49,226 bases of DNA. It comes from Candidatus Thermoplasmatota archaeon (GTDB taxonomy: Archaea; Thermoplasmatota; E2; DHVEG-1). Where the stretch lies: the NCBI GenBank assembly GCA_038884455.1, contig JAWABU010000008.1, positions 1 to 49,226 on the forward strand, given 5' to 3'. The notes under the pieces are model-generated. The model worked only from the letters and a program-made list of their open reading frames with translations, was not told the DNA's origin and did not search any database. Made by a program: the position numbers and the translations under genes. Below are positions 4,998 through 30,799 of this stretch, in pieces (position 1 is the first letter of the stretch; the number at the start of each line of letters is the position of its first letter).

Positions 4998-4999
4998 AA

Positions 5000-6028: not shown

Positions 6029-6065
6029 ATACCACGCCTATTGAAAGATGAAACGCACCATCTCT

Positions 6066-7276: not shown

Positions 7277-7351
7277 ATCCCCCCGCCCATTCATCCGTTC
7301 TCACTTTCACTTTTTCGTTGAAAGAATAGATATTTTGGCATTTTGTCACAC

Positions 7352-7365
7352 AATATTTAAATATT
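7352..7365 (+). promoter_or_regulatory. Palindromic TATA-like promoter element
   Basis: AATATTTAAATATT is a perfect 14-base palindrome inside an AT-rich stretch. It serves as the best TATA candidate for the gene at 7428 and could equally be a dimeric regulator site. It lies about 63 bases before the ATG, so a leader of roughly 35-40 bases is predicted. Confidence 0.4.
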
Positions 7366-7390
7366 ATTGTTTATAGAGTATAACATATAG

Positions 7391-7406
7391 GTGTGAGGAG
7401 ACACAC
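7391..7406 (+). promoter_or_regulatory. Small hairpin with a Shine-Dalgarno-like loop
   Basis: GTGTG (7391-7395) and CACAC (7402-7406) pair perfectly around the loop aggaga. This places an AGGAG ribosome-binding sequence in a hairpin loop 27 bases before the ATG at 7428. A six-codon reading frame at 7418-7438 overlaps the start of the main gene. Confidence 0.3.
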
Positions 7407-7427
7407 TCCATAAAAAAATGATGTCCT

Positions 7428-8609: not shown

Positions 8610-8710
8610 TCACCACCACACAGAAAGCAAAGCACCTCCTTATTCTTTTTATAATCCTTGCTGCTATCATCTTTGATTTTAATGACACCTACAGTAGTCG
8701 ATGTCTATGA
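8606..8710 (+). CDS. Possible 34-residue single-helix membrane peptide
   Basis: A GTG at 8606 overlaps the stop of the upstream gene (GTGA) and opens a frame of 34 codons ending with a TGA at 8708-8710, inside the start of the tRNA methyltransferase gene. The peptide has a short basic N-terminus (TTTQKAKH), one hydrophobic helix (LLILFIILAAIIFDF) and a polar end. Overlap at both ends suggests translational coupling, and it fills what would otherwise be a 91-base gap. There is no strong Shine-Dalgarno and no homologue can be judged at this length, so chance remains possible. Confidence 0.35.
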   Translation: MITTTQKAKHLLILFIILAAIIFDFNDTYSSRCL

Positions 8711-9717: not shown

Positions 9718-9761
9718 CCATACTACTTTTTATATGGTTAGACACTATCAACACAGCATCT

Positions 9762-10682
9762 ATGACACAGCTTAAAATCGTCTTTCTCGGAACCGGGGGA
9801 AGCTGGCCGACAACCAAAAGAAACGTCACCTCAATAGCAGTAAAACGAGGTAGCGAAATCATCCTGTTTGACTGTGGTGAAGGAACCCAACGGCAATTCC
9901 AAAAATCAATGTTAAGCTACATGCAAATAACCAGCATCTTTATCAGTCATTTTCATGGGGATCATTTTCTTGGATTGCCAGGTCTTTTACAAACAATGCA
10001 ACTCAACGACCGAGAAAAACCAATACATATCTACGGACCCGCAGGCATACAAAAACTCACCGATCAACTCCTCTCACTGGGATACTTCAAACCAGCATAT
10101 TCAATTATCAGCCATGAAATCAAAAATCATGATACGATACATTTCGATGGATACGCAATTCACGCTCTCAAAGTTAATCATAACATCCCAGCATATGCCT
10201 ATTGTCTTGAAGAAGACAAACGGCCAGGAAAATTCAACAAAAAGAAAGCATTATCACTCGGAATTCCAGAAGGGCCTCTGTTTAACAAACTCCAAAAAGG
10301 TATGACGATCACCTTATCCAACGGTAAAAAAATAACACCGAATATGGTGCTAGGTCCTGCTCGAAAAGGACGAAAAATCGTCTATTCCGGTGACACAAAA
10401 CCATATGATGAATTAATCCCTTTTTCAAAAAATGCTGACGTCCTCATCCATGAAGCAACCTTCGACTCAAAACTTGCCAACATCGCTGATGAATACGGCC
10501 ACACAACATCAGTTCAAGCAGCAAAAATTGCAGTACAAGCACAAGTCGAAAAACTATTTCTCATCCATATCAGCCCTCGATACCTTGATACGAATATTCT
10601 CAAAGATGAAGCAAAAAAAATTTTCCAAAAAACATATATTCCCAACGATCTTGACGCTCTAGAAATTTTCCTGAAAAAATAA
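9762..10682 (+). CDS. rnz: Ribonuclease Z (tRNA 3'-processing endonuclease)
   Basis: A 306-residue zinc-dependent metallo-beta-lactamase-fold nuclease that removes the 3' trailer from precursor tRNA. It begins with the family signature IVFLGTGGSWPTTKRNV, and the metal site appears as SHFHGDHFLGLPGL. GLPGLLQTM, the Asp of YSGDTKP, and the late HEATF (residues about 230) complete the RNase Z set. Length is that of the short form (RNase ZS). It lies just after the tRNA G10 methyltransferase on the same strand. Confidence 0.95.
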   Translation: MTQLKIVFLGTGGSWPTTKRNVTSIAVKRGSEIILFDCGEGTQRQFQKSMLSYMQITSIFISHFHGDHFLGLPGLLQTMQLNDREKPIHIYGPAGIQKLTDQLLSLGYFKPAYSIISHEIKNHDTIHFDGYAIHALKVNHNIPAYAYCLEEDKRPGKFNKKKALSLGIPEGPLFNKLQKGMTITLSNGKKITPNMVLGPARKGRKIVYSGDTKPYDELIPFSKNADVLIHEATFDSKLANIADEYGHTTSVQAAKIAVQAQVEKLFLIHISPRYLDTNILKDEAKKIFQKTYIPNDLDALEIFLKK

Positions 10683-10763
10683 GGAATACAAAAAAGAGTG
10701 AAGAAATCATAATTGTATTAAATAGAACACACGATTCAGAGAAGAGTATACGGTGTGATTTTC

Positions 10764-11225
10764 ATGGGAAAAATACCGGAAAATAATCGACCATCATACG
10801 ATGAATATTTCATGGAAATGGCACATGTTGTTTCAAAAAGAAGCACCTGTTTACGACGAAAAGTCGGAGCACTTCTAGTCAAAGATAAACATATTCTCAG
10901 CACGGGATATAATGGCGCACCGAAAGGTTTACAACATTGTTCCGAGGTAGGATGTCTTCGAGAAAAAATGAACATTCCTTCAGGGGAGCGACATGAGCTC
11001 TGTCGAGGATTACATGCCGAACAAAACGCAATCATCCAAGCAGCAGTTTTTGGTATTTCTATAAAGGACGCAATATTATATTGCACCAATACCCCTTGTG
11101 TTGTCTGCATTAAAATGCTTATTAATGCGGGTGTAACAGAAATCATCTACGCAGGAGATTATCCTGATCAACTGGCAAAAGAAATCGCCTCAGAAAGTAA
11201 TCTTAAAATAAAAAGATTTAAATAA
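10764..11225 (+). CDS. Deoxycytidylate (dCMP) deaminase family protein
   Basis: A cytoplasmic zinc enzyme of 153 residues predicted to convert dCMP to dUMP for thymidylate synthesis. The catalytic zinc motif is [11 protein letters not shown] with the paired Cys motif [11 protein letters not shown]. An extra Cys/His set (QHCSEVGC) before it matches the second zinc site of dCMP deaminases. The N-terminus ([21 protein letters not shown]) is typical. The ATG at 10764 is preferred to an in-frame GTG at 10755 because GGTGTGA precedes it at reasonable distance. It has its own short upstream AT-rich region. Confidence 0.9.
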
Positions 11226-11293
11226 TTGATTTCTATATAAAAAAAAGCTTTATGAAAAAATTGGAAAAATATAAATACTTAAGAATTGATTTC
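11224..11293 (+). promoter_or_regulatory. Promoter with two direct repeats (possible operator) for the winged-helix regulator
   Basis: The ten-base sequence AATTGATTTC occurs exactly at 11224-11233 and 11284-11293, 60 bases apart. A TATA-like element, aaatataaat, lies between them at about 11268-11275, about 36-43 bases before the ATG at 11311. The second copy falls where transcription should start, a position suited to self-repression by the encoded regulator. Confidence 0.4.
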
Positions 11294-11310
11294 CTTACTG
11301 AGGAGAAAGT

Positions 11311-11703
11311 ATGAAACGGAAAAAGTCATTTGTGTTAGATGATAAAGACTATAAAGCAGTTCAACTCTTCACCGAGCTCGGGATGCCGAAAAATCTTGCT
11401 AAAACATTACTTTTTATCTCACAAGTCGATGAATGCAGATCAGCAGATGTCGAACAAGGCGCTGACCTCAGACAACCAGAAGTAAGCGTTGCCATGCAAG
11501 AACTCCGAAGACGAGGCTGGGCAAAAAAACGAGATGTGAAAAAGAAAGGAAAAGGGCGTCCAGTACATCTCTATAAATTAACCGCAGATCTTCCAACTAT
11601 ATTAAAAAGCTTTGAAAAAGAAAAAATGAAGGAAGTCGAAAGCATCAAAGAAGATCTTAACCAACTCCACTCACTGATCCAAAATATTGAAAAAAACCCA
11701 TAA
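11311..11703 (+). CDS. Winged-helix transcriptional regulator (TrmB/MarR-like)
   Basis: A 130-residue DNA-binding protein. Residues about 15-95 form a winged helix: AVQLFTELGMPKNLAKTLLFIS, then a recognition-helix region DLRQPEVSVAMQELRRRGW and a basic wing KKRDVKKKGKGRPVHLYKL. The last 35 residues form a charged amphipathic helix that may be the dimer interface. Similar predicted regulators are common in Thermoplasmatota, but the regulon is unknown. A strong GAGGAG lies seven bases before the ATG. The upstream region carries two identical ten-base repeats, suggesting autoregulation. Confidence 0.8.
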   Translation: MKRKKSFVLDDKDYKAVQLFTELGMPKNLAKTLLFISQVDECRSADVEQGADLRQPEVSVAMQELRRRGWAKKRDVKKKGKGRPVHLYKLTADLPTILKSFEKEKMKEVESIKEDLNQLHSLIQNIEKNP

Positions 11704-11743
11704 CAAAAACAATTCCAAAATACTAAGATACACCATTCCCATT

Positions 11744-11754
11744 CTTTTTTCTTT
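11744..11754 (+). terminator. Oligo-T terminator after the winged-helix gene
   Basis: A T-rich tract (tcttttttctttgttcttt) begins 41 bases after the stop codon, as expected for archaeal U-tract termination. It also precedes the next promoter (TATA about 11771-11779). Confidence 0.35.
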
Positions 11755-11804
11755 GTTCTTTATTTAACAAGTATATATTTCAAAAAATATTGGTGGATAA
11801 AAAC

Positions 11805-12893
11805 GTGGTTGGGAGAATACAACGCATTATTAACAATAGCCCTCCAAACATTCAGGCTATTCTCATTAAAAATGGAAACAATACTAATACCGATGAAAAC
11901 TTTTTCTACATCACCGGTCTACATCAAGGATTATTTGAAGGATCGTATGTAATTCTTCATTCAGACAGAACCATTGATCTCATCACATCTGAACTTGAAG
12001 CAGAAAGCGCAAAAAAAACAAAAGCACATATCCACATTGCAAAAAAAAAAGACGATACAGAACAACTTCTCAAACAGATTTGTTCACAGGATAAAATCAT
12101 TGGTTTAAATTATCAAAAGATATCCTATGCGGATTTTTGCATCCTTCAGAGACTATTCCCTGAAACACAGTTTCCTGACATTTCTGAACCTCTAAAAAAA
12201 ACACGCCTCATCAAAGATTACGATGAAATCGAAACCATTCATCATGCATGCAAGATTGCTGATGCAGTTATGGAACAAATACCAAGCTTTATCCATCCTG
12301 GTATCAGTGAAACTGAGCTTGCAGCTGAAATTGATTATCATCTCCAAAAAGCTGGCGCAGAAAAACCAGCATTTACAACAATATCCTCATTTGGACAAAA
12401 TACCGCTGAACCGCACTATTCCCACGGAGAAAAACGAGTACAACAAGGAGATTTTATCATCTGTGATTTTGGTGCACGTTACCATCAATACAACTCAGAT
12501 ATCACCCGCACCTTCGTCTTTGGAAAAGCAACAGAATACCAGAAAAAAATGTACAACACCGTTTTCTCTGCGCATCAGTTAGCACTTGAAATCATCAAAC
12601 CAGGAGTCCCAGCACACACGATTCATACCAACGTACTATCACATATCAATCAAACTGAATTTAATGATCGCTTTATTCATGCAACAGGACATAGCCTAGG
12701 TCTTGCAGTCCATGATGGACCTGGTTTTACCCAAGAGAACACAGAACTACTCCAGGAAAATATGATACTCACTATTGAACCTGGCATCTATCTCCCAAAC
12801 ACAGGAGGAGTTCGACTTGAAGATGACATCCTGATCACTCAAAAAGGCAGTGAACTCCTAACAAAAACTCCGCGAAAATTAATAGAGATCTAA
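11805..12893 (+). CDS. M24 family Xaa-Pro peptidase
   Basis: A cytoplasmic metallopeptidase of about 362 residues. The N-terminal creatinase-type domain spans about 1-125 and the pita-bread catalytic domain about 130-362. The five metal ligands are visible: Asp in IICDFGARYHQ, Asp in YNSDITRTF, His in IHATGHSLGLAVHDGP, Glu in MILTIEPGIYLP and Glu in GVRLEDDILIT. This is the aminopeptidase P/prolidase pattern, cutting Xaa-Pro bonds. GTG at 11805 is chosen because GGTGGA lies seven bases before it; GTG at 11793 and TTG at 11790 are alternatives that add 4-5 residues. It is probably monocistronic. Confidence 0.88.
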   Translation: MVGRIQRIINNSPPNIQAILIKNGNNTNTDENFFYITGLHQGLFEGSYVILHSDRTIDLITSELEAESAKKTKAHIHIAKKKDDTEQLLKQICSQDKIIGLNYQKISYADFCILQRLFPETQFPDISEPLKKTRLIKDYDEIETIHHACKIADAVMEQIPSFIHPGISETELAAEIDYHLQKAGAEKPAFTTISSFGQNTAEPHYSHGEKRVQQGDFIICDFGARYHQYNSDITRTFVFGKATEYQKKMYNTVFSAHQLALEIIKPGVPAHTIHTNVLSHINQTEFNDRFIHATGHSLGLAVHDGPGFTQENTELLQENMILTIEPGIYLPNTGGVRLEDDILITQKGSELLTKTPRKLIEI

Positions 12894-12900
12894 AAAAAAT

Positions 12901-13143
12901 TTAATTTTCATGATCACGTTTATAGGTCCAATTAATCTCCATATTAATTTTTTTATACAATTGCGCGCCTTTCTCAAGTGTTTTTTTTTCAGATAAGATT
13001 TCGATGGCATTATCTGCAAGTAGCCGCATCGCTTCACGAATATTTTTTTGATTTGATTTTAAGATGTTTAATCCTAGTGAAAAAAGTTCTTCAACAATCT
13101 GCTCTATATCTTCTCCCTCGATACAAATATTTATCTTAACCAT
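12901..13143 (-). CDS. Small hypothetical protein, archaellin neighbour
   Basis: I do not recognise this 80-residue protein. It starts with a short beta strand (MVKINICIEGEDIEQIVEEL), continues with predicted amphipathic helices to about residue 65, and ends in a polar tail. There is no signal peptide or membrane helix and no Cys pairs, so it is probably cytoplasmic. GAGGG lies nine bases before the ATG. It begins 24 bases after the archaellin stop on the same strand, so the two are likely co-transcribed. Confidence 0.6.
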   Translation of the reverse strand: MVKINICIEGEDIEQIVEELFSLGLNILKSNQKNIREAMRLLADNAIEILSEKKTLEKGAQLYKKINMEINWTYKRDHEN

Positions 13144-13167
13144 TGAAAAAACCCTCTCATCTCTTTT

Positions 13168-13848
13168 TTAACATAAATCAATAACAGAGTTGGTATATGC
13201 TCCTGGTGTGGTAAACGAAATTACTCCTGGAGATCCTTCCTCAGGGATAACTTTACCAAAGATATTCGTATTTGGCATAATGCCATTGAATAATTTTGAC
13301 ACGTTAATGGTAAGAATGATATGATCACCTATACTCATGGCTGGATTATTGGCAGTACATGACCCATCACCATCCTGAATAACAATAAGGCCAAAAGTAG
13401 TACCATTATTTATTGGATAAAACGACCGGGTAAACATCTGGCCATTGATATCAAGATTTTTGGTAAAAACACTTTTATTATATCGAAGAAGTCCTTTCAC
13501 TGATGAATTTGAGAGTTCAAGAACGACATCTGCAAGATTAATGGGTCGTGAACCAGCTCGAGCTCGGATATCAATAGCAAGTAATTGGATAATTCCTGAC
13601 TTATTATAACCTGCAACAGATTCAACTGAGATGCCAGTTGACGTTTCTGAGATAGTAGCCTGACCCGAAAACATTGCCTGATTCTCTAATTTCGAACTTG
13701 TTTGAATGAGAACAGAAGCAGCAATACCTGCCACAAGGATCATCGCAATGAACACAATCATCGCGCCGATACCAACATCGCCGATTGTATGATGTTTAAG
13801 AGGTAGTAATAAGGTTCTATTGGCAACATCCCATCTCATGTATCCCAT
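13168..13848 (-). CDS. Archaellin (archaeal flagellin)
   Basis: A 226-residue major filament protein of the archaellum, or a closely related type IV pilin-like subunit. After a basic leader comes the class III signal peptide and polymerisation helix GIGAMIVFIAMILVAGIAASVL, then QTSSKLENQA..GQATISETSTGI, the conserved start of the archaellin domain. Prepilin peptidase should cut just before IGAMIV. The C-terminal domain is beta-rich and ends in Cys. A TATA at 13873-13882 would place transcription start at about 13851, so the ATG at 13848 would be nearly leaderless. An in-frame ATG at 13839 has GAGG nine bases upstream and is an alternative. No fla accessory genes (flaF-J) occur in the window, which is unusual. 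Confidence 0.85.
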   Translation of the reverse strand: MGYMRWDVANRTLLLPLKHHTIGDVGIGAMIVFIAMILVAGIAASVLIQTSSKLENQAMFSGQATISETSTGISVESVAGYNKSGIIQLLAIDIRARAGSRPINLADVVLELSNSSVKGLLRYNKSVFTKNLDINGQMFTRSFYPINNGTTFGLIVIQDGDGSCTANNPAMSIGDHIILTINVSKLFNGIMPNTNIFGKVIPEEGSPGVISFTTPGAYTNSVIDLC

Positions 13849-13869
13849 CCTCAGTATGCATGTGAATAT

Positions 13870-13884
13870 GCATTTATATATACT
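13870..13884 (-). promoter_or_regulatory. TATA box of the archaellin gene
   Basis: On the minus strand the sequence aagtatatataaatg forms a strong archaeal TATA element centred about 27 bases before a predicted start near 13851. Confidence 0.55.
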
Positions 13885-13917
13885 TGAAATAGAATAATTG
13901 ATTTATTAGGTTTATCT

Positions 13918-13965
13918 GCAGGTGCACACGCAGGTAGATATGTAGGTAGATATGCAGTTGCCGAC
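13918..13965. repeat. Degenerate 12-bp tandem repeat upstream of archaellin
   Basis: Four 12-base units can be laid out: gcaggtgcacac, gcaggtagatat, gtaggtagatat, gcagttgccgac. Units 2 and 3 differ by one base. They lie 35-80 bases upstream of the archaellin TATA box, in the 192-base gap after the radical SAM gene, which otherwise holds only AT-rich sequence. Confidence 0.45.
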
Positions 13966-14040
13966 ACACATGGGTATCCAGAAATGTATGCATTTATCTT
14001 GAGAAAAATATTTTTTTCATGTAGATAGAAAAATATGTAC

Positions 14041-15324
14041 TCAGCGGAGTTTTTCATGCAGATAAAATGACCGTACACCCATATTGCGCCCAAGTTTTAA
14101 ACCAAAACGAAAGATACTCCCATGGGTATGTTGCATACTCCGTCGTATGATCTGTGGAAACGAATAATATTGGAGAGCGATCTTTTTAATTCCTGCTAAC
14201 AACTCCTGTTCTGATAAATTCACAAGTCGATAATTTACGTTTCCTTCAGTGTACTTGGACCAGTCACGACAGACAATCCGCCCCTCTTTATCATATCGAT
14301 CAAAAAGCCGTGTCCCGGGATATGGAGTGACAATACTAAAGGATACTTCATCAAGACCCCAAGTATAGATTGCTTGCAATGTTTGTTCAAAGGTTTCAAT
14401 CGTATCAAAATCAAAACCAAACATAAAAAAACCGGTCACCATCATCCCATGATCATGGATCTTAGTAATTGCTTTTGCATAATTTTCAACCTTATTCGTC
14501 CCCTTCCCTGCAGCATCAATATTCTGCTGAGAAATCGACTCAATCCCTACATACCAGTTGATAAAACCAGCATCAGCAGCAAGCTTTAAAAATTCATCAT
14601 CTCGACTAAGCACATTGATATTGCCAAATCCTTCAGCGTATTTATTCAACTGAGTCATTGCTTTGAATAATGATTTTGAATAAGAAGGATTGATCGTTAA
14701 CGACGCATCAGTAAAAAATATGAATTTTGTCTTCATTGATTGCATTTCGTTGATAAGATGATCAACCGGTCTGCCACGAAAACGAGGTCCTTCAACAATC
14801 TGCATCGCGCAAAACTCACAGCCTGTAGGACATCCGCGAGACGCTTGGATCGGTTCACTGAACGGATGATACGAACCAATATCATGTCGAGCAGGTGGAA
14901 TCTCTTCGGGTTCGACAAAACGAGGAGGACGATACCATGGCTGTAGCTGATTTTTTTCGATATCCTCAAGAACTTTCGGCCAGGTTAGCTCTGCTTCTCC
15001 TATCACCACTGCATCAGCATGCTGTTTTGCCTCTTCGGGTAACAACGATGCATGATACCCACCAAAAATAACCGTTGAACCTTGCTGTTTAAACAAAGCA
15101 GCAAGTTCATATCCTCGAGGTGCATTATAGGTCAATGTTGAAATACCAACAACATCAAACTGTTTTGACAACGAAATTTTTTCAAATCGCTCATCAACAA
15201 TCGTCACCTTATGAGCCCGTGGCGTAAGTGCAGCAAGCTGCTTCAAAGCCAAAGAAGGATAGGTAAAACGTGCAAAGAAGTTACGACGTGCACGAGGATG
15301 AGGCATCAAGAGTAAAATATTCAT
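14041..15324 (-). CDS. B12-binding-domain radical SAM protein (copy 1)
   Basis: A 427-residue protein. Residues 1-140 form a cobalamin-binding-like Rossmann domain (VVGISTLTYNAPRGYELA, VIFGGYHASLLPEEA, VVIGEAE). The radical SAM barrel follows, with the [4Fe-4S]-binding Cys165, Cys169 and Cys172 in RGCPTGCEFCAM and later FFTDASLTINPSYSK and GMMVTGFFMFGFDFDT. This layout matches BchE-like and GDGT ring synthase-like enzymes, which methylate, cyclise or join unactivated carbons. Substrate is unknown. The last 50 residues are basic. The start ATG at 15324 is clear. A paralogue of the same length lies at 17410-18717, with conserved blocks such as AALTP, EAKQHAD and DASLTINP. Confidence 0.85.
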   Translation of the reverse strand: MNILLLMPHPRARRNFFARFTYPSLALKQLAALTPRAHKVTIVDERFEKISLSKQFDVVGISTLTYNAPRGYELAALFKQQGSTVIFGGYHASLLPEEAKQHADAVVIGEAELTWPKVLEDIEKNQLQPWYRPPRFVEPEEIPPARHDIGSYHPFSEPIQASRGCPTGCEFCAMQIVEGPRFRGRPVDHLINEMQSMKTKFIFFTDASLTINPSYSKSLFKAMTQLNKYAEGFGNINVLSRDDEFLKLAADAGFINWYVGIESISQQNIDAAGKGTNKVENYAKAITKIHDHGMMVTGFFMFGFDFDTIETFEQTLQAIYTWGLDEVSFSIVTPYPGTRLFDRYDKEGRIVCRDWSKYTEGNVNYRLVNLSEQELLAGIKKIALQYYSFPQIIRRSMQHTHGSIFRFGLKLGRNMGVRSFYLHEKLR

Positions 15325-20809: not shown

Positions 20810-21325
20810 ATGAAAAAAAGATATAATTCCCCGAAATTCTTTCTTACAGATACCACCGCAGTTTCAGAAGAATTTACTGCGTTACCTGCACTTGCTGTAG
20901 TCATGATCGGAATCACGCTCTTCATCCTCCTCGTCACCAACGTATATGCGGCCTACGAAACACGCATCGACAGTATCAAAAAATACCAAACTGCAGATTT
21001 TATCGCAAATAAACTTACCAATCAAAACTGTCCGTTCAGCCAGACAGCAGGAATCGTCCAGTTGACCGAATATACACAAATGAGCAGTAACCCTTTCTGG
21101 CAGAAAATCCAACAAGAATACCAAGCGGCAGGAATTGGTTTTATGCTGAGACTATCATGGACAGATACACAAGGACACCATAGCATTGATGTACCACCGT
21201 GTATCCCTTCCTTTGATCTCAACAAAGTTGGAAATCGTGTTGCTGTCAGCAGAGATGTAACTATCCAACTGAATCCAGTAACAGACTGCCCCGGAAAACT
21301 CACCATAATCACCTGGAGTGTGTAA
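20810..21325 (+). CDS. Pilin-like single-helix membrane protein (DUF7285-like)
   Basis: A 171-residue protein. A short cytoplasmic N-terminus (MKKRYNSPKFF) is followed by TAVSEEFTALPALAVVMIGITLFILLVTNVYAAYETR, a pilin-like helix with an acidic residue just before it. The remaining 110 residues are exported, contain three Cys (NQNCPF, VPPCIP, TDCPGK) and end in beta strands. The layout recalls haloarchaeal DUF7285-type proteins in pilus gene clusters (family recalled from memory, moderate certainty). ATG 20810 is chosen over TTG 20765 and ATG 20786 because AAGGA lies just before it. It is first of four tightly linked genes. Confidence 0.65.
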   Translation: MKKRYNSPKFFLTDTTAVSEEFTALPALAVVMIGITLFILLVTNVYAAYETRIDSIKKYQTADFIANKLTNQNCPFSQTAGIVQLTEYTQMSSNPFWQKIQQEYQAAGIGFMLRLSWTDTQGHHSIDVPPCIPSFDLNKVGNRVAVSRDVTIQLNPVTDCPGKLTIITWSV

Positions 21326-21332
21326 AAATATC

Positions 21333-22598
21333 ATGATTGTAAAAAGAAGTATACAGAGAAACACGCAGGCACTCTCTGTTATGTACGACGCAGTATTTTT
21401 CATTGTCCTCGTCAGCCTCAGTGGAGCAATACTTTTACCCGCTCTTCAAAGCAAAACCGCACTTCAAGCATCTGTCGAAAAAAAACGAGAAGAAATAGTC
21501 GACGAAACATTGCTCATGCTGATGACATCACGAGATGAATTCTTCTTACATACCTTTGCAGGATCACAACTTCAGGATATTTTAGGAGATTATAGTGGTA
21601 ACTGGCTGATCAATACCAGTATTCAAGCGTTACTTGGAAAACAACTATTGCATAAAACATATGCAGATTTATGCACAGAATCACTAATCTCACAGTTAAA
21701 TATATTCCACAACCGACTAAATATATTTACACAACAGTATGCTACTTTGCTAGATAAACGCATTTCGAATGTAGTTACCTATCATATTGGCTCGAAATAT
21801 GCATTCAATTTAAGTCTTGTTTGGCATCCTATCCAAGGAGTACCTTTCGGCGGAGAACTGTTCATCGGACAAGAACCACCTCAGACAAACATCTATGTTG
21901 CCACATCGTATATTACCCTACCTGAGACAAAACTGACTACATGGTTAGCACAAGCAGAACAATACCTCATGGAAATGATAAAAAATAATTCGGTATTACG
22001 AAACATTCAAACCTATCTCAGCAACTTCGATACTCTCAACCAAGCAATGGTACGGGAAAATCTGACAGAACTGATTAATACGACTTTCCAAGCTGTGCTG
22101 TTTGATGGTGTGAACGTTACTATTGGTTCACACAGATATGCTTTTCCAGGGGTGATCAATACAACCATTGATTATATTTTTGATAAAATTCAAACCTCAG
22201 TCAGCAACATTCTCAATAAATCACTTGGTAAGATAACCAGTCTGCTTAACACCATTGAGAACGGCATTGATATTACGAGATCACTGGATTCATATCTGAA
22301 GAATGCCATACTTCCACTGTTAACGCAACTCATCCCTGGTTTTGATGGAAGTACTATAACAAATCTTGATGAATTGTTTAGTGTGCTAAAAACGACGGTA
22401 ATTACAAAAACAAAAGAAGTTATAGATGGTGTTCTCACACCCTATATTACTATATTTGTGGACATGATTATGAATGTTCTAGGATCTACAATTGATTCGG
22501 TAGCTGAGCTTGGAGGAGAGGTTCTCGAGTTCTTCAATCAACGAGTCAACATCCTTCGAGCAGAGATACGATTAATGATTTGGGAGGCACGTTCATGA
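21333..22598 (+). CDS. Membrane-anchored pilus-cluster protein (DUF7284-like N-terminus)
   Basis: A 421-residue protein with a basic N-terminus, then TQALSVMYDAVFFIVLVSLSGAILLP, a pilin-like membrane helix. The exported part is mostly helical, with repeated heptad-like stretches at about 235-420 (for example NTIENGIDITRSLDSYLKNAILPLL) suggesting a coiled-coil rod. The N-terminal region resembles haloarchaeal DUF7284 proteins (memory-based). GTG at 21318 overlaps the previous stop; ATG 21333, seven bases after that stop, is preferred. Its end overlaps the ATG of the next gene in ATGATGA, a sign of coupled translation. Confidence 0.65.
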   Translation: MIVKRSIQRNTQALSVMYDAVFFIVLVSLSGAILLPALQSKTALQASVEKKREEIVDETLLMLMTSRDEFFLHTFAGSQLQDILGDYSGNWLINTSIQALLGKQLLHKTYADLCTESLISQLNIFHNRLNIFTQQYATLLDKRISNVVTYHIGSKYAFNLSLVWHPIQGVPFGGELFIGQEPPQTNIYVATSYITLPETKLTTWLAQAEQYLMEMIKNNSVLRNIQTYLSNFDTLNQAMVRENLTELINTTFQAVLFDGVNVTIGSHRYAFPGVINTTIDYIFDKIQTSVSNILNKSLGKITSLLNTIENGIDITRSLDSYLKNAILPLLTQLIPGFDGSTITNLDELFSVLKTTVITKTKEVIDGVLTPYITIFVDMIMNVLGSTIDSVAELGGEVLEFFNQRVNILRAEIRLMIWEARS

Positions 22599-25500
22599 TG
22601 AAAAGAAAAAATCTATTAAAAGATGATTGGGCGCGTATTCCATTTAGTATCATTGGAGTATTTTTACTCATCGGTAGTAGTATAACAACGGTGTATATCT
22701 CACAATTAGAAAATCAAAAATCAAAGGAAATCTCTACAACAATAGAGACGAACGATATAGATCCTATTGTCAAATATGTCGAAGCAGATCTTGCACGATG
22801 TTTGAACTATGCTGCTTGTAGCGCGTTGAATGAAATTGGTAAAAACCCGGTTGCTGTTCCTTTGAGTGGCACTGAATTGTATTTTGATGTGAACTACGAC
22901 AATACAATCGATGAAGTTGATGTAAATATAAATCGGATGCGTGTTGATACCTACTATCTATTGAGCAAACTGGTACATGAAAATTTCAAAAACGGGCGGT
23001 ATACCGCTGGTAAATATAACGTGACGGTCACCATGCCAACATCATGGCGAGAAGTAACTCTTGAAAAAAACATCATCAAATTAATGATGAGTCGCGTTCT
23101 CGATAACGGTTGTAAGAATGAATATCCAGTATATCCTGTTCTTCGAGTGAATATGTCGATTTCAGTGAATGATACGATACTTGGAAAAACGGTGTTTACT
23201 AAAAAATCGGTGATTATGACGGTTATTACAAACCGGTATCCACTCCTTGAAGAACTGACTCGTGAGTTTGATTCTCGGCTCAACGGTTCCTGGAGTTCAT
23301 TTGGCATTAATTCATTGATTTTTTTGATGCCAATGACCTGGATCCATGCATGGGCACAATATAAAACAAATAAACCGCTTAACATTGTAAGTACCACATG
23401 GCTTGAATTTGTGACAAATAGCGCCCTTCTCCTCGAGGAGGGATTTGTATTTAACAGCGTTGACCCAGTAGGTCTGGTATATACTGGATTTGGGTTTGGG
23501 CGTGCTGTAGCTGAAGACATCACCATGAATCCTGACTCGCTCGAAGATATCTCTGCTACGATCTTAAGTGAACAAGTACAAAATCCGATTGGAACAAATA
23601 ATTTCAAAAATAATTACGATGCCTTTGCTCGTAAATTTGGTGAAACACCTTTGACCAGTGATCAATTACAGTTTACTCCTGAGGTAAACATCAGTAAAGT
23701 CTGTAAAGAAGAAGCTGATTATATCCTTGGTGATCCTGATGGAAAAACCATCACAACCGTACTGAATGCATACTCAGCAGAGGTGTACACTAGGGTCACT
23801 CGAACAACCTATCAGCACAATCAGCGTTCAATAAACAACTCCGTTAATGCTGCGTATACTGACGACAGCTCTGAACGAGAGCGAGACGGCGAAGCACGTG
23901 CTCAAGCTGAAGCGATGGGACCGCCATGTCCTGCGTGTGGGAACTGGTCATTTGCTGGAGTCAGTTTTCAACGGATGTACACATCTCGGATCACACAAGA
24001 GTTTACAGATCTGCAAGTGAGTGAGGCGCGTTTTCAAAAAAATATTGAGTTTGATAATCGTAACGTTCCTGTCGTTCTCGGTGGCGAGTCCTGGAAGATA
24101 AAAAGAACCCAGACACAAACGTATTCTTGGACCTCGTGGTCATCCTGGACAGCAACCTGGCGTAGCGACAAAAGTTCGTGCAGCCCGTGCGCTACAACAA
24201 TAATATTACCGTCAGTAGGTCACACTATTTCAAAGGATTTCTTTGATAACCAATGGGTAAATATCACTTTTGAAAGTGACGTGTTCGCTGCGCTTTCAGA
24301 TGGATCAAAAAATGATATTCTCAACCCATTTACCGAAGCAAATTTTGATACATCTGTCGACCCAAATCTCAAAAAGGTGTATAAACGTGATCCAGTTCCT
24401 GGAAATTGGACGCTCCTTACTCGGTATACAACCGACAGCGGATGGCCATCTGATATGAGTTGGACCTCTGAACCTCGCAAGGAGACTCTCCGCATAAAGA
24501 GTGGTAGACTTCTTGGTGCCGACAAACGATATCCAAAAGCAATTAACCCTGAAAGATACCAATACCAGTATGTATTGTATCCAGAGTGGTTATACAGTAA
24601 AATCAGTGCGGTTATCATCGATTGGATGAACCGTATTCCTCAGCAGATTAAAACAACTAAAACCGTTGACCAAAATACCTCCCCTGATGTCCTAGAACAA
24701 ACGATATCCTCTACGCTGTTCTCACTCTGGAATTCAAAGAGAAGTAGCTGGAATGCCGAACTTGCTTCAACATATAAAACAGGATCAAAGTATACAAGCA
24801 CTGCTGCGAAAGTGATGTACTACCTCCTAATGCGGTATCTCGACCGAATCGAGGCAAAAGTTTCTGGGATGAGCCTCCAAAATACAATAGAAAACAGTAT
24901 CAACGAGGCATTCACCCAAGCTGGAATCAACGATTGTTCATATAGCCAACTGAAGGATGCCGCAGCCAGTGCAAAATCGTTGACTGAGTTGTTACTCCCG
25001 CGTTTTCCGTTGGCGTTTGTCATGAATCTAACCGCTCCCTACATCCCATCAAATCCCTACAGTAGCTGGACTGAACCATTCCAATGTGCAGTTGTTCACG
25101 AGCCGTCGTTTCTTAGCAAACCAAACTATGAGAAGTATTACACCCCCTCAGGTGAACATGGGAACGAACAGAAATGTAAACTACGGTACCAGAACATTAA
25201 TCTGTTTAGCCCTGGCGCTGGAATCAACGATCTGATCGATAAAGGATTTGATGCAGTAAATACTATGGTCTGCAGTGCACTCGACACTGGTTTTACAAAG
25301 CTTGATGAAATCGCAGCTGCAGCAAACACAACAGTTAAAAATCAGGTTCAACAGGCTTTAGACAACATCACGAACGAGATCCATCGGCAGCTTCTTGCAA
25401 ATCTGAGCAATAAGATCACCCAATCATTGGAGAAAAGTGCAACGATGATGCATTTAAATATAAGCATTCAGCGTCTCAATATACCATCGATTGTTTCAAC

Positions 25501-26155
25501 TGTCCTTGGACAGAGTAAAGATAACGGAAACCCAAGATATGCTCATGATTTGAACATATCACAACATGCGATTAATATCAGCAGTAGAATCCAACAGCAG
25601 ATAGGTAATCAATATAGCTATCTATCAACTGAAATAAAAAATGAAATCATGAGTGTTATTGATAAGCAGGTGCTGAGCGTGTATACAAAAGTTGTATCTG
25701 ATACTATCAATAACTCCAAAGAAAAATTAAAACAAGAATTTGGCGTGCTGAGTAGTAAACTCCAGAAATGGGCAAACAACCAACTATCCAAATTAATAAG
25801 TTCGTTTATCCCGGCAGGGCTTCCTTTGTTACTGCCTATCGGTTGGATCATGACGCTCAACGTATGGTATATCGACGTGAGCGGACAGATACCGTTCTTC
25901 CAGGTGAGCGACAGCTATGATGAAACCATGGCACATCCCTTCTGGGGACATACAGCACAGGAGTACACCCGGAGGTATATGCCGGTTTTTATTGATCTTA
26001 ATGGTGATGGACAACCTGAATATCTCATTGGACATAATCGACCGATTGATTTTGAATATAAAACTGCGACCTGTGCAATTGTACCCGGTAAAAACAAGGT
26101 TACCGGCATGGGTGATCGCATTGGAGGATGGGATGAAACATCATCATATCCATAA
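22595..26155 (+). CDS. Giant membrane-anchored surface protein (DUF7286-like)
   Basis: A 1186-residue protein. MMKRKNLLKDDWARIPFSIIGVFLLIGSSITTVYISQLE gives a basic start, an RIPF motif and one membrane helix; this closely recalls the N-terminus of haloarchaeal DUF7286 proteins found in pilus clusters (memory-based). The remaining 1100 residues are predicted outside. They include a Cys-paired segment (CPACGNW at about 445 and CSPC at about 528), Trp/Ser-rich strands, helical stretches at about 740-900 and 920-1080, and a Ca-binding-like loop DLNGDGQPEYLIGH near 1131, as in FG-GAP repeats. GGGAGG lies seven bases before ATG 22595. It is probably the main structural or adhesive component of the operon; the precise role is unknown. 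Confidence 0.7.
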   Translation: MMKRKNLLKDDWARIPFSIIGVFLLIGSSITTVYISQLENQKSKEISTTIETNDIDPIVKYVEADLARCLNYAACSALNEIGKNPVAVPLSGTELYFDVNYDNTIDEVDVNINRMRVDTYYLLSKLVHENFKNGRYTAGKYNVTVTMPTSWREVTLEKNIIKLMMSRVLDNGCKNEYPVYPVLRVNMSISVNDTILGKTVFTKKSVIMTVITNRYPLLEELTREFDSRLNGSWSSFGINSLIFLMPMTWIHAWAQYKTNKPLNIVSTTWLEFVTNSALLLEEGFVFNSVDPVGLVYTGFGFGRAVAEDITMNPDSLEDISATILSEQVQNPIGTNNFKNNYDAFARKFGETPLTSDQLQFTPEVNISKVCKEEADYILGDPDGKTITTVLNAYSAEVYTRVTRTTYQHNQRSINNSVNAAYTDDSSERERDGEARAQAEAMGPPCPACGNWSFAGVSFQRMYTSRITQEFTDLQVSEARFQKNIEFDNRNVPVVLGGESWKIKRTQTQTYSWTSWSSWTATWRSDKSSCSPCATTIILPSVGHTISKDFFDNQWVNITFESDVFAALSDGSKNDILNPFTEANFDTSVDPNLKKVYKRDPVPGNWTLLTRYTTDSGWPSDMSWTSEPRKETLRIKSGRLLGADKRYPKAINPERYQYQYVLYPEWLYSKISAVIIDWMNRIPQQIKTTKTVDQNTSPDVLEQTISSTLFSLWNSKRSSWNAELASTYKTGSKYTSTAAKVMYYLLMRYLDRIEAKVSGMSLQNTIENSINEAFTQAGINDCSYSQLKDAAASAKSLTELLLPRFPLAFVMNLTAPYIPSNPYSSWTEPFQCAVVHEPSFLSKPNYEKYYTPSGEHGNEQKCKLRYQNINLFSPGAGINDLIDKGFDAVNTMVCSALDTGFTKLDEIAAAANTTVKNQVQQALDNITNEIHRQLLANLSNKITQSLEKSATMMHLNISIQRLNIPSIVSTVLGQSKDNGNPRYAHDLNISQHAINISSRIQQQIGNQYSYLSTEIKNEIMSVIDKQVLSVYTKVVSDTINNSKEKLKQEFGVLSSKLQKWANNQLSKLISSFIPAGLPLLLPIGWIMTLNVWYIDVSGQIPFFQVSDSYDETMAHPFWGHTAQEYTRRYMPVFIDLNGDGQPEYLIGHNRPIDFEYKTATCAIVPGKNKVTGMGDRIGGWDETSSYP

Positions 26156-26189
26156 AAATCAACAACCACTCTAAGTACCAGGAGAGTCT

Positions 26190-26945
26190 ATGAACAATCA
26201 GAAGAAAAACCTCCTGCTCATGTGCATGATAAGCATAGTGCTCGTGAGTTCGGTATCTACCACAACAGCGTATAGAGATGAACGAATATCAGTTTATTTT
26301 TATTTCACATGGATGAATGATGATGGAACATGGCATGAATGGCATAACGTCAGCAAAGAGGGCTATATCGAGGACCAAATCCTTCAAATTGGACAGCCGA
26401 TCAAATGTAAGATCATCGTGACACCGCATGTTCGATGTATTTTTACAATAGAATTATCAGAAATCGGGACTCCACATGCCTATGATTTATTAGAAGGTAC
26501 CTATGATGCAGCGAAACCAGGAACAGGATTTATGGTTTTTGAAAATCAGGAGCAAATAGACGACCAAAAACAAGTATTTAAAGACTATAACATCCCGCTC
26601 TATCACCAACCACAATATCTGCTCATCAATGAACCGCTCGAGTATACCTGGGTTTTACGGCCGAATGCTAACTGGTCATGTGAAGGTTGTAGCGGTGCAC
26701 CACTCAACTGTGACTTTGTTGCCCAAAATTTCAAAAAAGGTGAAAACGTTATCATTGGTGTGTCCTTTGCTGTTCCCATTATCAGGGGATACTGGACTGG
26801 CCCAACGTACCACCCAAGCAATGCAGCAAATACCAAAAACAATCCCCAAGAAAGTACGAGCACGCCAGGATTTGATCTGTTCATACTCATTATCTCACTT
26901 GTTACTTTTCTAATCATCCTACGACAGACATGCCGAAACCGATAA
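26190..26945 (+). CDS. Secreted protein with PGF-CTERM-like sorting signal
   Basis: A 251-residue surface protein. Signal peptide: residues 1-27 (LLLMCMISIVLVSSVSTTTAY). The mature part is beta-rich with RISVYFYFTWMND, QILQIGQPIKCKIIVTPHVRC and a Cys-containing loop WSCEGCSGAPLNCD. The C-terminus is a tripartite PGF-CTERM-like tail: STPGFDLF, a hydrophobic helix (ILIISLVTFLIIL) and basic RQTCRNR. Such tails are recognised by archaeosortase A, which swaps them for a lipid. The mature part may be related to sarcinarray-family MAST proteins (uncertain). AGGAGA lies four bases before the ATG. It follows the giant protein by 34 bases, so it is the last gene of the operon. Confidence 0.75.
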   Translation: MNNQKKNLLLMCMISIVLVSSVSTTTAYRDERISVYFYFTWMNDDGTWHEWHNVSKEGYIEDQILQIGQPIKCKIIVTPHVRCIFTIELSEIGTPHAYDLLEGTYDAAKPGTGFMVFENQEQIDDQKQVFKDYNIPLYHQPQYLLINEPLEYTWVLRPNANWSCEGCSGAPLNCDFVAQNFKKGENVIIGVSFAVPIIRGYWTGPTYHPSNAANTKNNPQESTSTPGFDLFILIISLVTFLIILRQTCRNR

Positions 26946-27449: not shown

Positions 27450-28079
27450 TTAATGATGAAAGCCAACCCTGTTTTGATGATACAGCTCAACAGCATCACG
27501 CACAACATCTGATAATAACATACGTCGTTCCTCATTGGTCCCTTTTCCCAACGTCCCATACAACGTAGCAAAAAAGGGTTTAACATCACCATGATCATAC
27601 CCAAGGGTAACAACAGTAAACATGGGAATACCTTGTACATCTTGAGTGTCATAAATACGCTGAGATGCTCGTAACCGCTCGGTTGTATGATGAATATTAA
27701 TATAGATAAAGGTAATATTCGTATCAAAAAGTCGGACTGTTGTTGAAAACATATCCTGCTTCCCGAACTCAACTGAAAACAACTCTTTGATTACCGGATA
27801 CATAATATCACAGCCAAGACAGGAATCACCACTGTAATGAAGAAAAACTACCCCCTGAGAAAGATTCTGAACAACGAAATCAGGATGCGACATACTATCA
27901 ACCGTGTTAAAACTAAAATTAACTGTGGTTTTTGGTTGCAATTTCAAACAACTCAAACAGAGTACCTGTACAATACCCTCATATACTTCAGAATACACCG
28001 GAGTTGCAAACAGCATCCCTACAAACAATGCTGAAACAACAACCAGTGCAGTTATTTGAACAACCAGTATTTTTTTCAT
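27450..28079 (-). CDS. Exported thioredoxin-fold protein with two CxxC motifs
   Basis: A 209-residue protein. A signal or anchor helix occupies residues 1-30 (ILVVQITALVVVSALFVGML). Two CxxC pairs follow: Cys41-Cys44 (VLCLSCLKL), soon after the membrane, and Cys87-Cys90 (YSGDSCLGCDIMYPV) at the position of the thioredoxin active site. GIPMFTVVTLGYDHG supplies the cis-Pro region (VQGIPMF). It should face the outside of the cell and exchange electrons with exported thiols. It begins three bases after the polyferredoxin gene stop and is the last gene of the six-gene redox operon. Confidence 0.78.
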   Translation of the reverse strand: MKKILVVQITALVVVSALFVGMLFATPVYSEVYEGIVQVLCLSCLKLQPKTTVNFSFNTVDSMSHPDFVVQNLSQGVVFLHYSGDSCLGCDIMYPVIKELFSVEFGKQDMFSTTVRLFDTNITFIYINIHHTTERLRASQRIYDTQDVQGIPMFTVVTLGYDHGDVKPFFATLYGTLGKGTNEERRMLLSDVVRDAVELYHQNRVGFHH

Positions 28080-28082
28080 GAT

Positions 28083-28895
28083 CTACATCCTCTCAAAGGT
28101 GATGAGTTTTTTCGGACAAGTACTCACGCATTTTCCACAGAGAATACATTCAGGATCGCGGTGCATCGTTGGCACGTCAATACCCATCGGACACTGCAAT
28201 GAACACATATGACAATGAACACAATCTTCTTTATGAACTTCAACATGGAGAAAACTTATTTTATTAAACACTGCAAAAAAAGCTCCAAGTGGACAGAAAT
28301 AGCGACACCAACCCCGCTCAACCACAAAAATCAAGATGATAAACAAAATAAAAATAACCAAGGCAACAGGGAAGAAAAAATTTGGGACAAACTTTCCAGG
28401 ATACAAAATAAGAACAGGGACTGTTCCCGTCAGAAAACCAACCGGACAAATATCAGTAAAAATAAAACCAAGGAGATAGGAGGTAGCGAAAACAAGGCCA
28501 ATAAGAACACCATATTTTGTATACCGGAGATACTGTTCACATCGATGTTTACCGATGGTTTGAATCAGCCTAAATTTTTTTAACTTCCGTGCGAAACGTC
28601 CAGTACCACGTTGCAACAAACCAATCGGACATGCCCAACCACACACTGCTCGGCCAGTGGTTATACCAAAAAATCCAAGAATGAGAAAAGGATACAAAAA
28701 CAACCGCCATGCAAAACTACCTTTATCAACACTTTGCTCAAATGCACGAAGCGGACATGCTGCTGATGCAGCAGGACAAGCATGACAGTAAAAAAAAGGA
28801 AAACAAAAACCGGTTTTAACACCAAGTGCACCAAGATTCGCTGAAAAAAACAAAAAAATTTGAGTAATCAACCGTTGGAATTGTAATCGCATCAT
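28083..28895 (-). CDS. NapH/MauN-like membrane polyferredoxin
   Basis: A 270-residue integral membrane iron-sulfur protein with four to five helices. It has two CxxxCP motifs (CGWACPIG at 85-92, CRYFCPLG at 197-204), the hallmark of NapH/NosR/CcoG-like proteins, and additional Cys near the N-terminus (CHACP, ACP). Two [4Fe-4S] ferredoxin sites follow at the cytoplasmic C-terminus: Cys225/228/231/235 and Cys250/253/256/260. The family moves electrons between cytoplasm and the outer side of the membrane, and the CxxxCP pairs may be redox-active thiols. The ATG overlaps the upstream stop (ATGA). Lying between exported thioredoxin-fold genes, it is the likely transmembrane electron carrier of the operon. 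Confidence 0.85.
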   Translation of the reverse strand: MMRLQFQRLITQIFLFFSANLGALGVKTGFCFPFFYCHACPAASAACPLRAFEQSVDKGSFAWRLFLYPFLILGFFGITTGRAVCGWACPIGLLQRGTGRFARKLKKFRLIQTIGKHRCEQYLRYTKYGVLIGLVFATSYLLGFIFTDICPVGFLTGTVPVLILYPGKFVPNFFFPVALVIFILFIILIFVVERGWCRYFCPLGAFFAVFNKISFLHVEVHKEDCVHCHMCSLQCPMGIDVPTMHRDPECILCGKCVSTCPKKLITFERM

Positions 28896-29407
28896 TTTCT
28901 CTTTGTATACAAGAAAGTTATCAGCACAACAAGACTAACTGCTCCCACGTATAGCAGTAGTTCAAAAGCTGGTGTTTTATTATCTGTTGGAGTATTGCCA
29001 TCCGATTTTGGCACTAGATCACGATTGATGTCAGAGGTCTTTTGCCAACCTTGTTCACTATGAACAATAGCTGCATAAGTAATATAGGTTGCATCCCCAT
29101 GTGTTAACGACACCGTTGCTCGATATGTCCCAGGAGCAACCTCAGTCATAGATGTATTCTGTGGCGTGTAACAAACACCAGTATTTTTATTACATTCCTG
29201 GACAAAAAGATAGACGCCGTGTATTTGTTCTCCAGTTACATCAACGGTAAAGGTTACTGATGATTGAACGGCTGGTGCTTCTGGACTGACCTGTATTTCA
29301 CCAATCGTCGGTGGCGCTGCAGAAACCACACTCGAAAGTATCGCGATCATCGCAATAATCACGCCAGACAATACTGCTTTTTTTTCAAACTGGATATTCA
29401 TACTCAT
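28892..29407 (-). CDS. Secreted Ig-like protein with CTERM-like anchor
   Basis: A 171-residue protein. Signal peptide: residues 1-30. Residues 32-120 form one Ig-like beta domain (VSPEAPAVQSSVTFTVDVTG ... APGTYRATVSLTHGDAT) with two Cys (QECNKNTGVCY). A Thr/Asn-rich spacer leads to KTPAFELLLYVGAVSLVVLITFLYTKRK, which has the layout of a PGF-CTERM tail but with PAF instead of PGF. It could be an archaeosortase variant substrate or a plain membrane anchor. AAGGAG lies five bases before the ATG. It sits third from last in the redox operon; it may hold the exported thiol proteins near the membrane (inference). Confidence 0.7.
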   Translation of the reverse strand: MSMNIQFEKKAVLSGVIIAMIAILSSVVSAAPPTIGEIQVSPEAPAVQSSVTFTVDVTGEQIHGVYLFVQECNKNTGVCYTPQNTSMTEVAPGTYRATVSLTHGDATYITYAAIVHSEQGWQKTSDINRDLVPKSDGNTPTDNKTPAFELLLYVGAVSLVVLITFLYTKRK

Positions 29408-29432
29408 TCATTCTCCTTTTGAAACCTTAGGA

Positions 29433-29966
29433 TTATTTTAGTTTTTCATCAATTTTTGAAGCAAGCGTTGCGTAGGATTCATAACCAACGTGTGAATAAT
29501 AAATGTTTCCTTTTTGATCCAAAAGATACAAACTTGGAACACCCTGCGGGGCGTAGAGTGTTCGAATCGCCCCCTGTGAATCATCAACACCAAATATCCA
29601 ATCAAGGACAATCCCATACTGTTCAAACGTATCAAGCATGTTGTTGATCATATCAACGGTCTCTTGATTCATCCAGACATCAATTGATACAATCACCACA
29701 GAATTTTTTGAATAATTCTCAGAAATCTTTTTCAGTTCAAGCATCTGATACCAACAGGGCTGACAATTTACCGCCATTAAATCAAGAACAACGATTTTTC
29801 CAGCAAAATCGGCCAACGAACGAGTACGACCATCAAGAGTAGTAAAAACAATATTTTCAGCATACTCAGTGGTTTTATCAGAATTGATACAACCACTAAG
29901 CATCCCAAGAATACTGACAGACATCACTAGAAAAAAAGATATCAAACGAGTGCTGCTCCGTATCAT
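29433..29966 (-). CDS. TlpA-like thioredoxin-fold lipoprotein
   Basis: A 177-residue exported thiol-disulfide protein. A signal peptide ends in a lipobox, MLSGC with Cys26, predicting a lipid anchor. The fold begins at TTLDGRTRSLADFAGKIVVLDLMAVNCQPCWYQM, with the active-site Cys68-x-x-Cys71 (NCQPC). The cis-Pro loop is QGVPSLYLLDQKG. This is the TlpA/ResA/AhpC-TSA pattern, used to reduce disulfides outside the cell. It follows the thioredoxin gene by 16 bases. Confidence 0.87.
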   Translation of the reverse strand: MIRSSTRLISFFLVMSVSILGMLSGCINSDKTTEYAENIVFTTLDGRTRSLADFAGKIVVLDLMAVNCQPCWYQMLELKKISENYSKNSVVIVSIDVWMNQETVDMINNMLDTFEQYGIVLDWIFGVDDSQGAIRTLYAPQGVPSLYLLDQKGNIYYSHVGYESYATLASKIDEKLK

Positions 29967-29982
29967 TGTCCATCCAAAACCA

Positions 29983-30432
29983 TCAGAGTTTCTGGGTTAA
30001 CCGATGTTTCAATTGATCCTTAGGCAGCGCACCAACAATACGATCAACCAACGAACCATTTTTAAAAACTAACAACGTCGGAATACTCATAATTTGATGC
30101 TGAGCTGACACCAACGGATTTTCATCAACATTAAGTTTACCAAAAACAATTTTTCCCTGCATCTCCTTAGCAAGCTCTTCAATAACCGGTCCAATCATAC
30201 GACATGGACCGCACCAGGGTGCCCAACAGTCAACCACAATCGATGGGTATTTTTTTACTGTTGCATCAAAATCACCATCAGTGATGTGCAACGGTGTATT
30301 TGGCCATTTTTGTTCCATTTTTTTTCCTCCATAAAGATATTGCTTTCTGATCTGTTCATATTTTTTCTTTCTGAGTTCCTCTAACTCATCCATAAGATGT
30401 TGAGATGGACATTGTACTATATAAGTGTTCAT
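29983..30432 (-). CDS. trxA: Thioredoxin with N-terminal extension
   Basis: A cytoplasmic thiol-disulfide oxidoreductase. The thioredoxin domain is typical, with active site [15 protein letters not shown], the cis-Pro loop [13 protein letters not shown] and the end [13 protein letters not shown]. Up to 38 extra residues precede it, including a charged helix [18 protein letters not shown]. Two starts compete. The ATG at 30432 overlaps the upstream stop (ATGA) and yields 149 residues. An internal ATG at 30318 has a perfect GGAGG seven to eight bases before it and yields a standard 111-residue thioredoxin. The extension reads as protein, so I keep the long form. It probably reduces cytoplasmic partners or feeds the operon's membrane step. 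Confidence 0.9.
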
Positions 30433-30689
30433 CCTTGAGTGTCTTGAATCCACTTCCGAATCCGCAGATAGCCAAGATGCTTTTTTCCATCAACCCATAG
30501 AATCGGGGCGGTGATTTGAAGATCATCAAAAACATGATATTCTTTTGCCAGGGCAACATCTGATTCAGTCCACGATGAGAAGTCATGGGGAAAGGTTATC
30601 ACCTCAACATCGGTTCTGTTTACCAAGAGTTCTTTTGTCTGACTGCATTTTGCACATTGTTCAAGGCAAAATAATATTTTTTTTTCCAT
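30429..30689 (-). CDS. Glutaredoxin-like protein
   Basis: An 86-residue small thiol oxidoreductase of the cytoplasm. It begins MEKKILFCLEQCAKCSQTKELL: a beta strand, Cys8, and the active site Cys12-x-x-Cys15. The TAPILWVDGKKHLGYLRI segment holds the cis-Pro (TAP) of the glutaredoxin fold. The start at 30689 gives the normal fold; an in-frame ATG at 30731 adds 14 residues that do not look like part of the domain. It is the first gene of the redox operon and overlaps the thioredoxin gene by four bases. Confidence 0.75.
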   Translation of the reverse strand: MEKKILFCLEQCAKCSQTKELLVNRTDVEVITFPHDFSSWTESDVALAKEYHVFDDLQITAPILWVDGKKHLGYLRIRKWIQDTQG

Positions 30690-30799
30690 ACAGATAACCC
30701 GCGAGAAACAGTTCGAGCTGTATACAACCATGATTCTTTTTTTGCTATTTGAACGTTCTTATACCTTTGTTTAACAAAAAAATGTTGTTGGAAAACAAT

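Follow-up and report, generated by a model that had tools for sequence, protein, structure and literature searches.

Operon layout and genomic setting

The window, by which we mean the whole stretch of DNA analysed, covers 49,226 nucleotides of contig C8 in a Candidatus Thermoplasmatota genome sampled as 1.70 Mb on 61 contigs at 98% completeness. Reading its open reading frames, four tightly packed co-directional genes are found between positions 20810 and 26945:

20810..21325, + strand: gene 1, DUF7285-like pilin-like subunit, family F4, 171 aa (profile-profile comparison, AF2 model)
21318..22598, + strand: gene 2, DUF7284 pilin-like subunit, family F1, 426 aa (Pfam, profile-profile comparison)
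22595..26155, + strand: gene 3, DUF7286 giant subunit, family F0, 1186 aa (Pfam, profile-profile comparison, AF2 model)
26190..26945, + strand: gene 4, secreted protein with a PGF-CTERM-like C-terminus, family F5, 251 aa (C-terminal motif)

Genes 1 and 2 overlap by 8 nt, genes 2 and 3 by 4 nt, and a gap of 34 nt separates gene 3 from gene 4. Given these overlaps and this gap, the four genes very likely form one transcript, and since their order is kept in many relatives the arrangement is not due to chance. The four-gene run proposed in the initial annotation is thus upheld by the reading frames, their tight overlaps and the conserved order. The N-termini of genes 1-3 each consist of a short charged stretch and a single long hydrophobic segment. 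An AMP-ligase-like gene lies upstream of the operon, and downstream a convergent redox gene run (27450-30731, - strand) encodes a polyferredoxin-type membrane protein, an AhpC/TSA-like protein and thioredoxins. The window also holds a lone archaellin gene (13168-13848, - strand; Pfam Arch_flagellin, 2.1e-29) and a 748 aa protein of peptidase family C25 with a propeptide (175-2421, + strand). On contig C14 (L042), paralogues of this archaellin cluster around a tandem pair of T2SSE ATPases resembling duplicated archaellum motors.

The DUF7285-like and DUF7284 subunits

Family alignments from relatives were compared with families drawn from haloarchaeal loci by profile-profile alignment (hhalign), wrong pairings in the resulting matrix scoring below 3%. 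The initial annotation placed haloarchaeal DUF7285, DUF7284 and DUF7286 proteins beside type IV pilus ATPase and platform genes, and our search of haloarchaeal loci shows that they do sit there. The suggested kinship of the window proteins with this group is recovered by Pfam for genes 2 and 3, but for gene 1 it is seen in the profile-profile comparison and not in Pfam.

Indeed, single-sequence scans of gene 1 gave no credible Pfam match and nothing useful in NCBIfam; these scans being uninformative, a profile comparison was needed, and by that method alone gene 1 matches haloarchaeal DUF7285 at 92.8% (E 4e-7). Its N-terminal segment reads FLTDTTA/VSEEFTALPAL..., and Glu20 is invariant across 22 sequences. 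The AF2 model (pLDDT 82) displays a 55-residue N-terminal helix (residues 16-70) carrying a four-strand beta head; as predicted, this architecture is that of a pilin, while a fold search with the model gave no PDB match. Gene 2 matches Pfam DUF7284 at 3.4e-6 with 27.6 bits (cut-off 27) and haloarchaeal DUF7284 at 96.8% in the profile-profile comparison. Its N-terminal segment reads IQRNTQA/LSVMYDAVFFIVL..., and a PDB sequence search gave no credible relative.

The giant DUF7286 protein

Gene 3 matches Pfam DUF7286 at 1.5e-50 with 173 bits (cut-off 27), and its family matches the haloarchaeal DUF7286 family at 99.9% (E 3.6e-37) in the profile-profile comparison. The nearest named relatives found with this protein are Thermoplasmata and Candidatus Thermoplasmatota metagenome-assembled genomes. 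An unrelated S-layer protein was rejected as its identity, since the DUF7286 match spans most of the protein and the neighbouring genes match too; hits such as CsgF and PRANC were likewise discarded, their Pfam scores being under the respective cut-offs. The genome of Candidatus Methanoperedens sp. BLZ2 alone contains, on separate contigs, at least four copies of the DUF7286 gene (L118, L119, L120, L159/L163).

The AF2 model of gene 3, of moderate quality over its full length (mean pLDDT 67.5, pTM 0.50), shows a pilin-like 39-residue N-terminal helix (residues 11-49) followed by a large ectodomain. A fold search of the PDB with this model found nothing at E <= 0.001, a PDB sequence search gave no credible relative, and the Pfam scan found no known adhesin domain. 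The Cys-paired and Ca-loop features on which a tip or adhesin role had been suggested fare differently. The pairs C445/C448 and C529/C532 are present but not conserved, C445 being a Cys in 1 of 42 aligned sequences and C448 in 2 of 44; judged from these alignments, they are private to this protein. Of Ca-type loops there is only one, DLNGDG at residues 1134-1139; the alignment places such a loop at the matching position in L117, the closest relative, and in numerous haloarchaeal homologues. The protein further carries 18 N-x-S/T sequons and, at about residues 896-1062, a coiled-coil stretch of ~165 residues that is helical in the model. This stretch is found in the window protein, in L117 and in nearly all haloarchaeal homologues, and is absent from the DUF7286 proteins of other Thermoplasmata and of Methanoperedens; it was either ancestral and then lost, or gained twice independently.

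Gene 4, prepilin signals and processing enzymes

Gene 4 begins with a signal-like segment and ends with TPGFDL, a hydrophobic segment and RQTCRNR. The same kind of ending, TPGFDL followed by hydrophobic and basic residues, was seen by eye in its relatives. With the Pfam PGF-CTERM model the window protein was not among the matches listed and a relative scored under the cut-off; the NCBIfam matches to sarcinarray (1.3e-6) and MAST are weak and likewise under cut-off. The genome encodes an archaeosortase A (ArtA, 5.3e-38).

Class III-like N-termini were sought by a simple rule, namely a charged stretch, Gly/Ala and ~20 hydrophobic residues. By this rule they occur in 17 of 19 members of the gene-2 family and 8 of 16 of the gene-1 family, and in the pilin-like families pF2 (21/25), pF3 (24/28) and pF7 (13/15), compared with 50 of the 483 remaining genes in these loci. 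The gene-3 family does not follow the rule, having an Arg after the Gly/Ala, with [GA]-R-[IV]-P-F at the putative cleavage position; an Arg at +1 being atypical of prepilins, the processing of gene 3 is uncertain. One prepilin peptidase is present in the genome, and in relatives a prepilin-peptidase-like gene adjoins the HerA gene described below.

A probable motor on contig C17

The operon had been described as being without its ATPase. This holds for the window, which has no ATPase or platform gene, but not for the genome: the search for PilB/PilC-like genes elsewhere, which the same annotation had called for, found both on contig C17, and across relatives their presence follows that of the operon. 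Searching the genome with PF00437 returned seven T2SSE ATPases over cut-off, none of them on C8. The relevant genes on C17 (locus L043) are the following:

4234-7694: pilin-like or coiled-coil genes (module 2)
7833-9827: PilC17, platform-like protein
9837-12062: PilB17, T2SSE ATPase (PF00437 match)
12153-14053: HerA-family ATPase and pilin-like gene, divergent from PilB17
12153-13460: HerA17, the HerA-family ATPase of this pair, 435 aa, divergent from PilB-PilC

PilB17 matches haloarchaeal PilB with a profile E of 2.7e-90, and PilC17 matches haloarchaeal PilC at 1.9e-60 in the profile-profile comparison but ordinary TadC families only weakly (72%). Neither PilC17 nor haloarchaeal PilC matches Pfam T2SSF. 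In a tree of 555 positions, the PilB17 orthologues group with the haloarchaeal DUF7286-linked PilB, apart from the genome's six other ATPases, with a support of 0.999. Furthermore, cysteines at the N-terminus are common to the PilB17 orthologues and their haloarchaeal homologues: of 16 orthologues, 15 keep C25, C28 and C40 and 13 keep C101/C104/C144/C147, whereas C25, C28 and C101-C147 are absent from the six other ATPases. A separate locus on contig C11 (L039, 710-13858) is likewise pilus-like: its tandem ATPases measure 951 and 607 aa, and beside two TadC-like genes it encodes two giants that resemble pilins (1368 and 838 aa).

A PilB17 orthologue is present in 21 of 23 DUF7286-positive genomes and in 1 of 22 DUF7286-negative ones (Fisher p = 1.5e-9, without correction for kinship). 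Orthologues were counted at 52-80% identity, except in G058, where only an end-of-contig fragment was found (48%). The two DUF7286-positive genomes in which PilB17 was not detected are G013 and G053, the latter being also without another T2SSE gene present in its relatives. The lone DUF7286-negative genome with PilB17, G029, carries module 2 as well. DUF7286-negative genomes do carry other T2SSE ATPases.

A proposed single machine in three modules

Across lineages the genes fall into three modules: module 1 comprises PilC-PilB with the divergent HerA and pilin-like genes, module 2 a set of pilin-like and coiled-coil genes, four or five in number, and module 3 the window operon, itself without an ATPase or platform gene. 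Their layout differs between lineages. In the present genome C17 carries modules 1 and 2 side by side and module 3 is on C8; in two other families of the class a single operon of roughly ten genes (L052-L060) unites modules 2 and 3 with the extra pilin-like gene; in the relative L121 modules 1 and 3 share a contig, 3 kb apart; in Candidatus Methanoperedens loci the end of module 2 is joined to module 3; and in haloarchaea PilB, PilC, DUF7283, DUF7285, DUF7284 and DUF7286 form a single locus. Within module 2, pF6 is coiled-coil-like, its profile match to DUF7310 reaching only 24%. DUF7283 found no counterpart among the local families, pF7 included, in the profile-profile comparison.

A contig break was considered as the cause of the split between operon and C17 genes and rejected. 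Since the operon lies ~20 kb from both contig ends and has the same AMP-ligase-like gene nearby in this genome and in G002, its separation looks real in this assembly.

A HerA-family ATPase was found where it was not expected. HerA17 has the Walker A motif GKRGYGKS and no predicted membrane segment, and all PilB17 loci examined, L095-L108 and L121 among them, have a HerA-family gene running divergently from PilB-PilC. The genomes with HerA17 are precisely the 21, including G029, in which the PilB17 match is long; a separate HerA-like gene, at 24-29% identity, is present in 43 of 45 genomes. The haloarchaeal loci, as far as their flanks were fetched, yielded no HerA-family ATPase, and the match of HerA17 to CedD is weak (6.9e-7) and inside the ATPase core. 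Appearing exactly where full-length PilB17 does, HerA17 is an unexpected and testable partner. HerA17 might be a dedicated second ATPase in a machine that joins filament assembly to nucleic acid translocation, as a DNA uptake or exchange pilus with Ups/Ced-like logic and different parts, which we consider improbable.

Interpretation and alternatives

Family relations, gene-order linkage and co-occurrence are direct observations, as is the presence of an ATPase, a platform homologue, a prepilin peptidase and an archaeosortase. The linkage of the modules in varied pairs, the grouping of PilB17 with the haloarchaeal ATPases and its co-occurrence with DUF7286 together indicate that the C17 and window halves belong together. 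We therefore propose, with a probability of about 0.8, that the window operon encodes the surface module of an archaeal type IV pilus belonging to the haloarchaeal DUF7286-cluster kind, dispersed in this genome; the prepilin peptidase and archaeosortase A encoded in the genome and the pilin-like architecture of gene 1 support such a pilus. Against it count the two DUF7286-positive genomes in which PilB17 was not detected, the co-occurrence figure being uncorrected for kinship, the weak TadC match of PilC17, the negative PDB fold searches with genes 1 and 3 and the Arg at the putative cleavage site of gene 3. The way in which its subunits are processed, assembled into a filament and placed is inferred as follows. 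The prepilin peptidase would trim the pilin-like N-termini, and PilB17, acting on PilC17, would drive the subunits outward from the membrane in trans. A base or minor-pilin complex may be built from the small subunits; the DUF7286 protein would be anchored there through its N-terminal helix, bearing its large domain outward. Gene 4 would be exported and then fixed to the cell surface beside the pilus by archaeosortase A.

Which motor serves the operon could be answered otherwise. A surface complex that truly has no ATPase and needs no motor would agree with the gene content of the window, yet it is most improbable given that in relatives the operon co-occurs with PilB17 and is linked to it by gene order, and we rejected it because PilB17 is present elsewhere in the genome and tracks DUF7286. 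The operon could also be an interchangeable pilin set served by the C11 tandem ATPase pair and its two TadC genes. Makarova et al. (PMC4858521) have argued that archaeal ATPase/TadC modules are able to exchange pilin sets; moreover, module 2 sits 8-9 kb from a C11-type tandem pair in G002 and G035, and module 3 adjoins C11-type giant pilin-like genes in G002 (L051). However, T2SSE ATPases other than PilB17 occur in DUF7286-negative genomes whereas PilB17 tracks DUF7286, and the ATPase inside the haloarchaeal DUF7286 cluster belongs to the PilB17 clade and not to the C11 clade, so that service by C11 has a low probability.

With PilB17 as the motor, the product might instead be a secretion machine or a membrane-spanning pseudopilin complex, resembling type II secretion, in which gene 4 would serve as client or cover protein. 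None of the three modules has a major pilin gene, all subunits being minor-pilin- or pseudopilin-like, and two proteins with large outward parts would suit a fixed complex. Nevertheless, archaeal pili usually have their major pilins encoded by stand-alone genes (PMC4858521), hence their absence from the modules says little, and we regard this reading as unlikely. As for the DUF7286 protein, we tentatively consider, at somewhat less than even odds, that it is both filament tip and adhesin, PilY1-like in role. The pilin-like helix on a very large ectodomain in the AF2 model, the position of the Ca-type loop common to many haloarchaeal homologues and the sequons point to such a role; against it stand the searches, which returned neither an adhesin or propeller fold in the PDB nor an adhesin domain in Pfam, the lack of conservation of the Cys pairs and the moderate model. 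An adhesin role is possible, though no domain speaks for it.

Under the preferred reading, that of a dispersed DUF7286-cluster pilus, names without functions (DUF7283-7286, DUF7310 and DUF7311) come to be linked; no mention of DUF7286 was found in the literature searched. As gene order, co-occurrence and phylogeny tie these families to one ATPase, they are testable as one machine in culturable haloarchaea. The number of loci over which this machine is spread, one, two or three, depends on the lineage, which also advises caution in calling an archaeal pilus motorless from a single contig.

Comparison with known systems

The closest known arrangement is the haloarchaeal cluster DUF7310-DUF7311-PilB-PilC-DUF7283-DUF7285-DUF7284-DUF7286, as in Haloarcula sebkhae (L185) and Halobacteriales QS_4_62_28 (L169). 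Both systems have a homologous ATPase and platform, a DUF7311-like pilin-like gene, DUF7285, DUF7284 and DUF7286, the last three in identical order. Unlike the haloarchaeal cluster, the present system is split over two contigs, has no detected counterpart of DUF7283, and possesses in addition the PGF-CTERM-like gene 4, the pilin-like families pF2 and pF7 and the HerA-family ATPase, the last not seen in the haloarchaeal flanks fetched.

In the classification of Makarova et al., the pilus is probably of subclade 4F, in which the ATPase bears a variable Cys-rich domain at its N-terminus, a coiled-coil protein is its partner inside the cell and an S-layer-like protein is frequent, with major pilins mostly encoded elsewhere and arCOG02981 as a dedicated major pilin (PMC4858521). 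The conserved N-terminal cysteines of PilB17 resemble this description, and the coiled-coil-like pF6 and the putatively surface-anchored gene 4 may do so, the likeness being one of described features only. A HerA-family partner is not mentioned there for this system, unlike here.

Type IV pili and HerA-clade ATPases also meet in the Ups/Ced systems of Sulfolobales, where pilus-linked DNA exchange involves CedB and CedD (PMC11868833). The likeness lies in a type IV pilus alongside a HerA-family ATPase, but HerA17 differs in having no predicted membrane segment and in its weak CedD match within the ATPase core. In Thermoplasmatales, the CdiP pilus of Cuniculiplasma divulgatum has two ATPases and a split platform, and the available part of its description (PMC12448462) does not mention the DUF728x set; its pilin genes lie ~500 kb from the ATPase/platform operon, a precedent for pilins encoded at a distance from the motor. 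Taken together, this kind of archaeal type IV pilus is already known, though unstudied, and what is new is the lineage and the dispersed layout, with the HerA-family ATPase as an unexpected partner.
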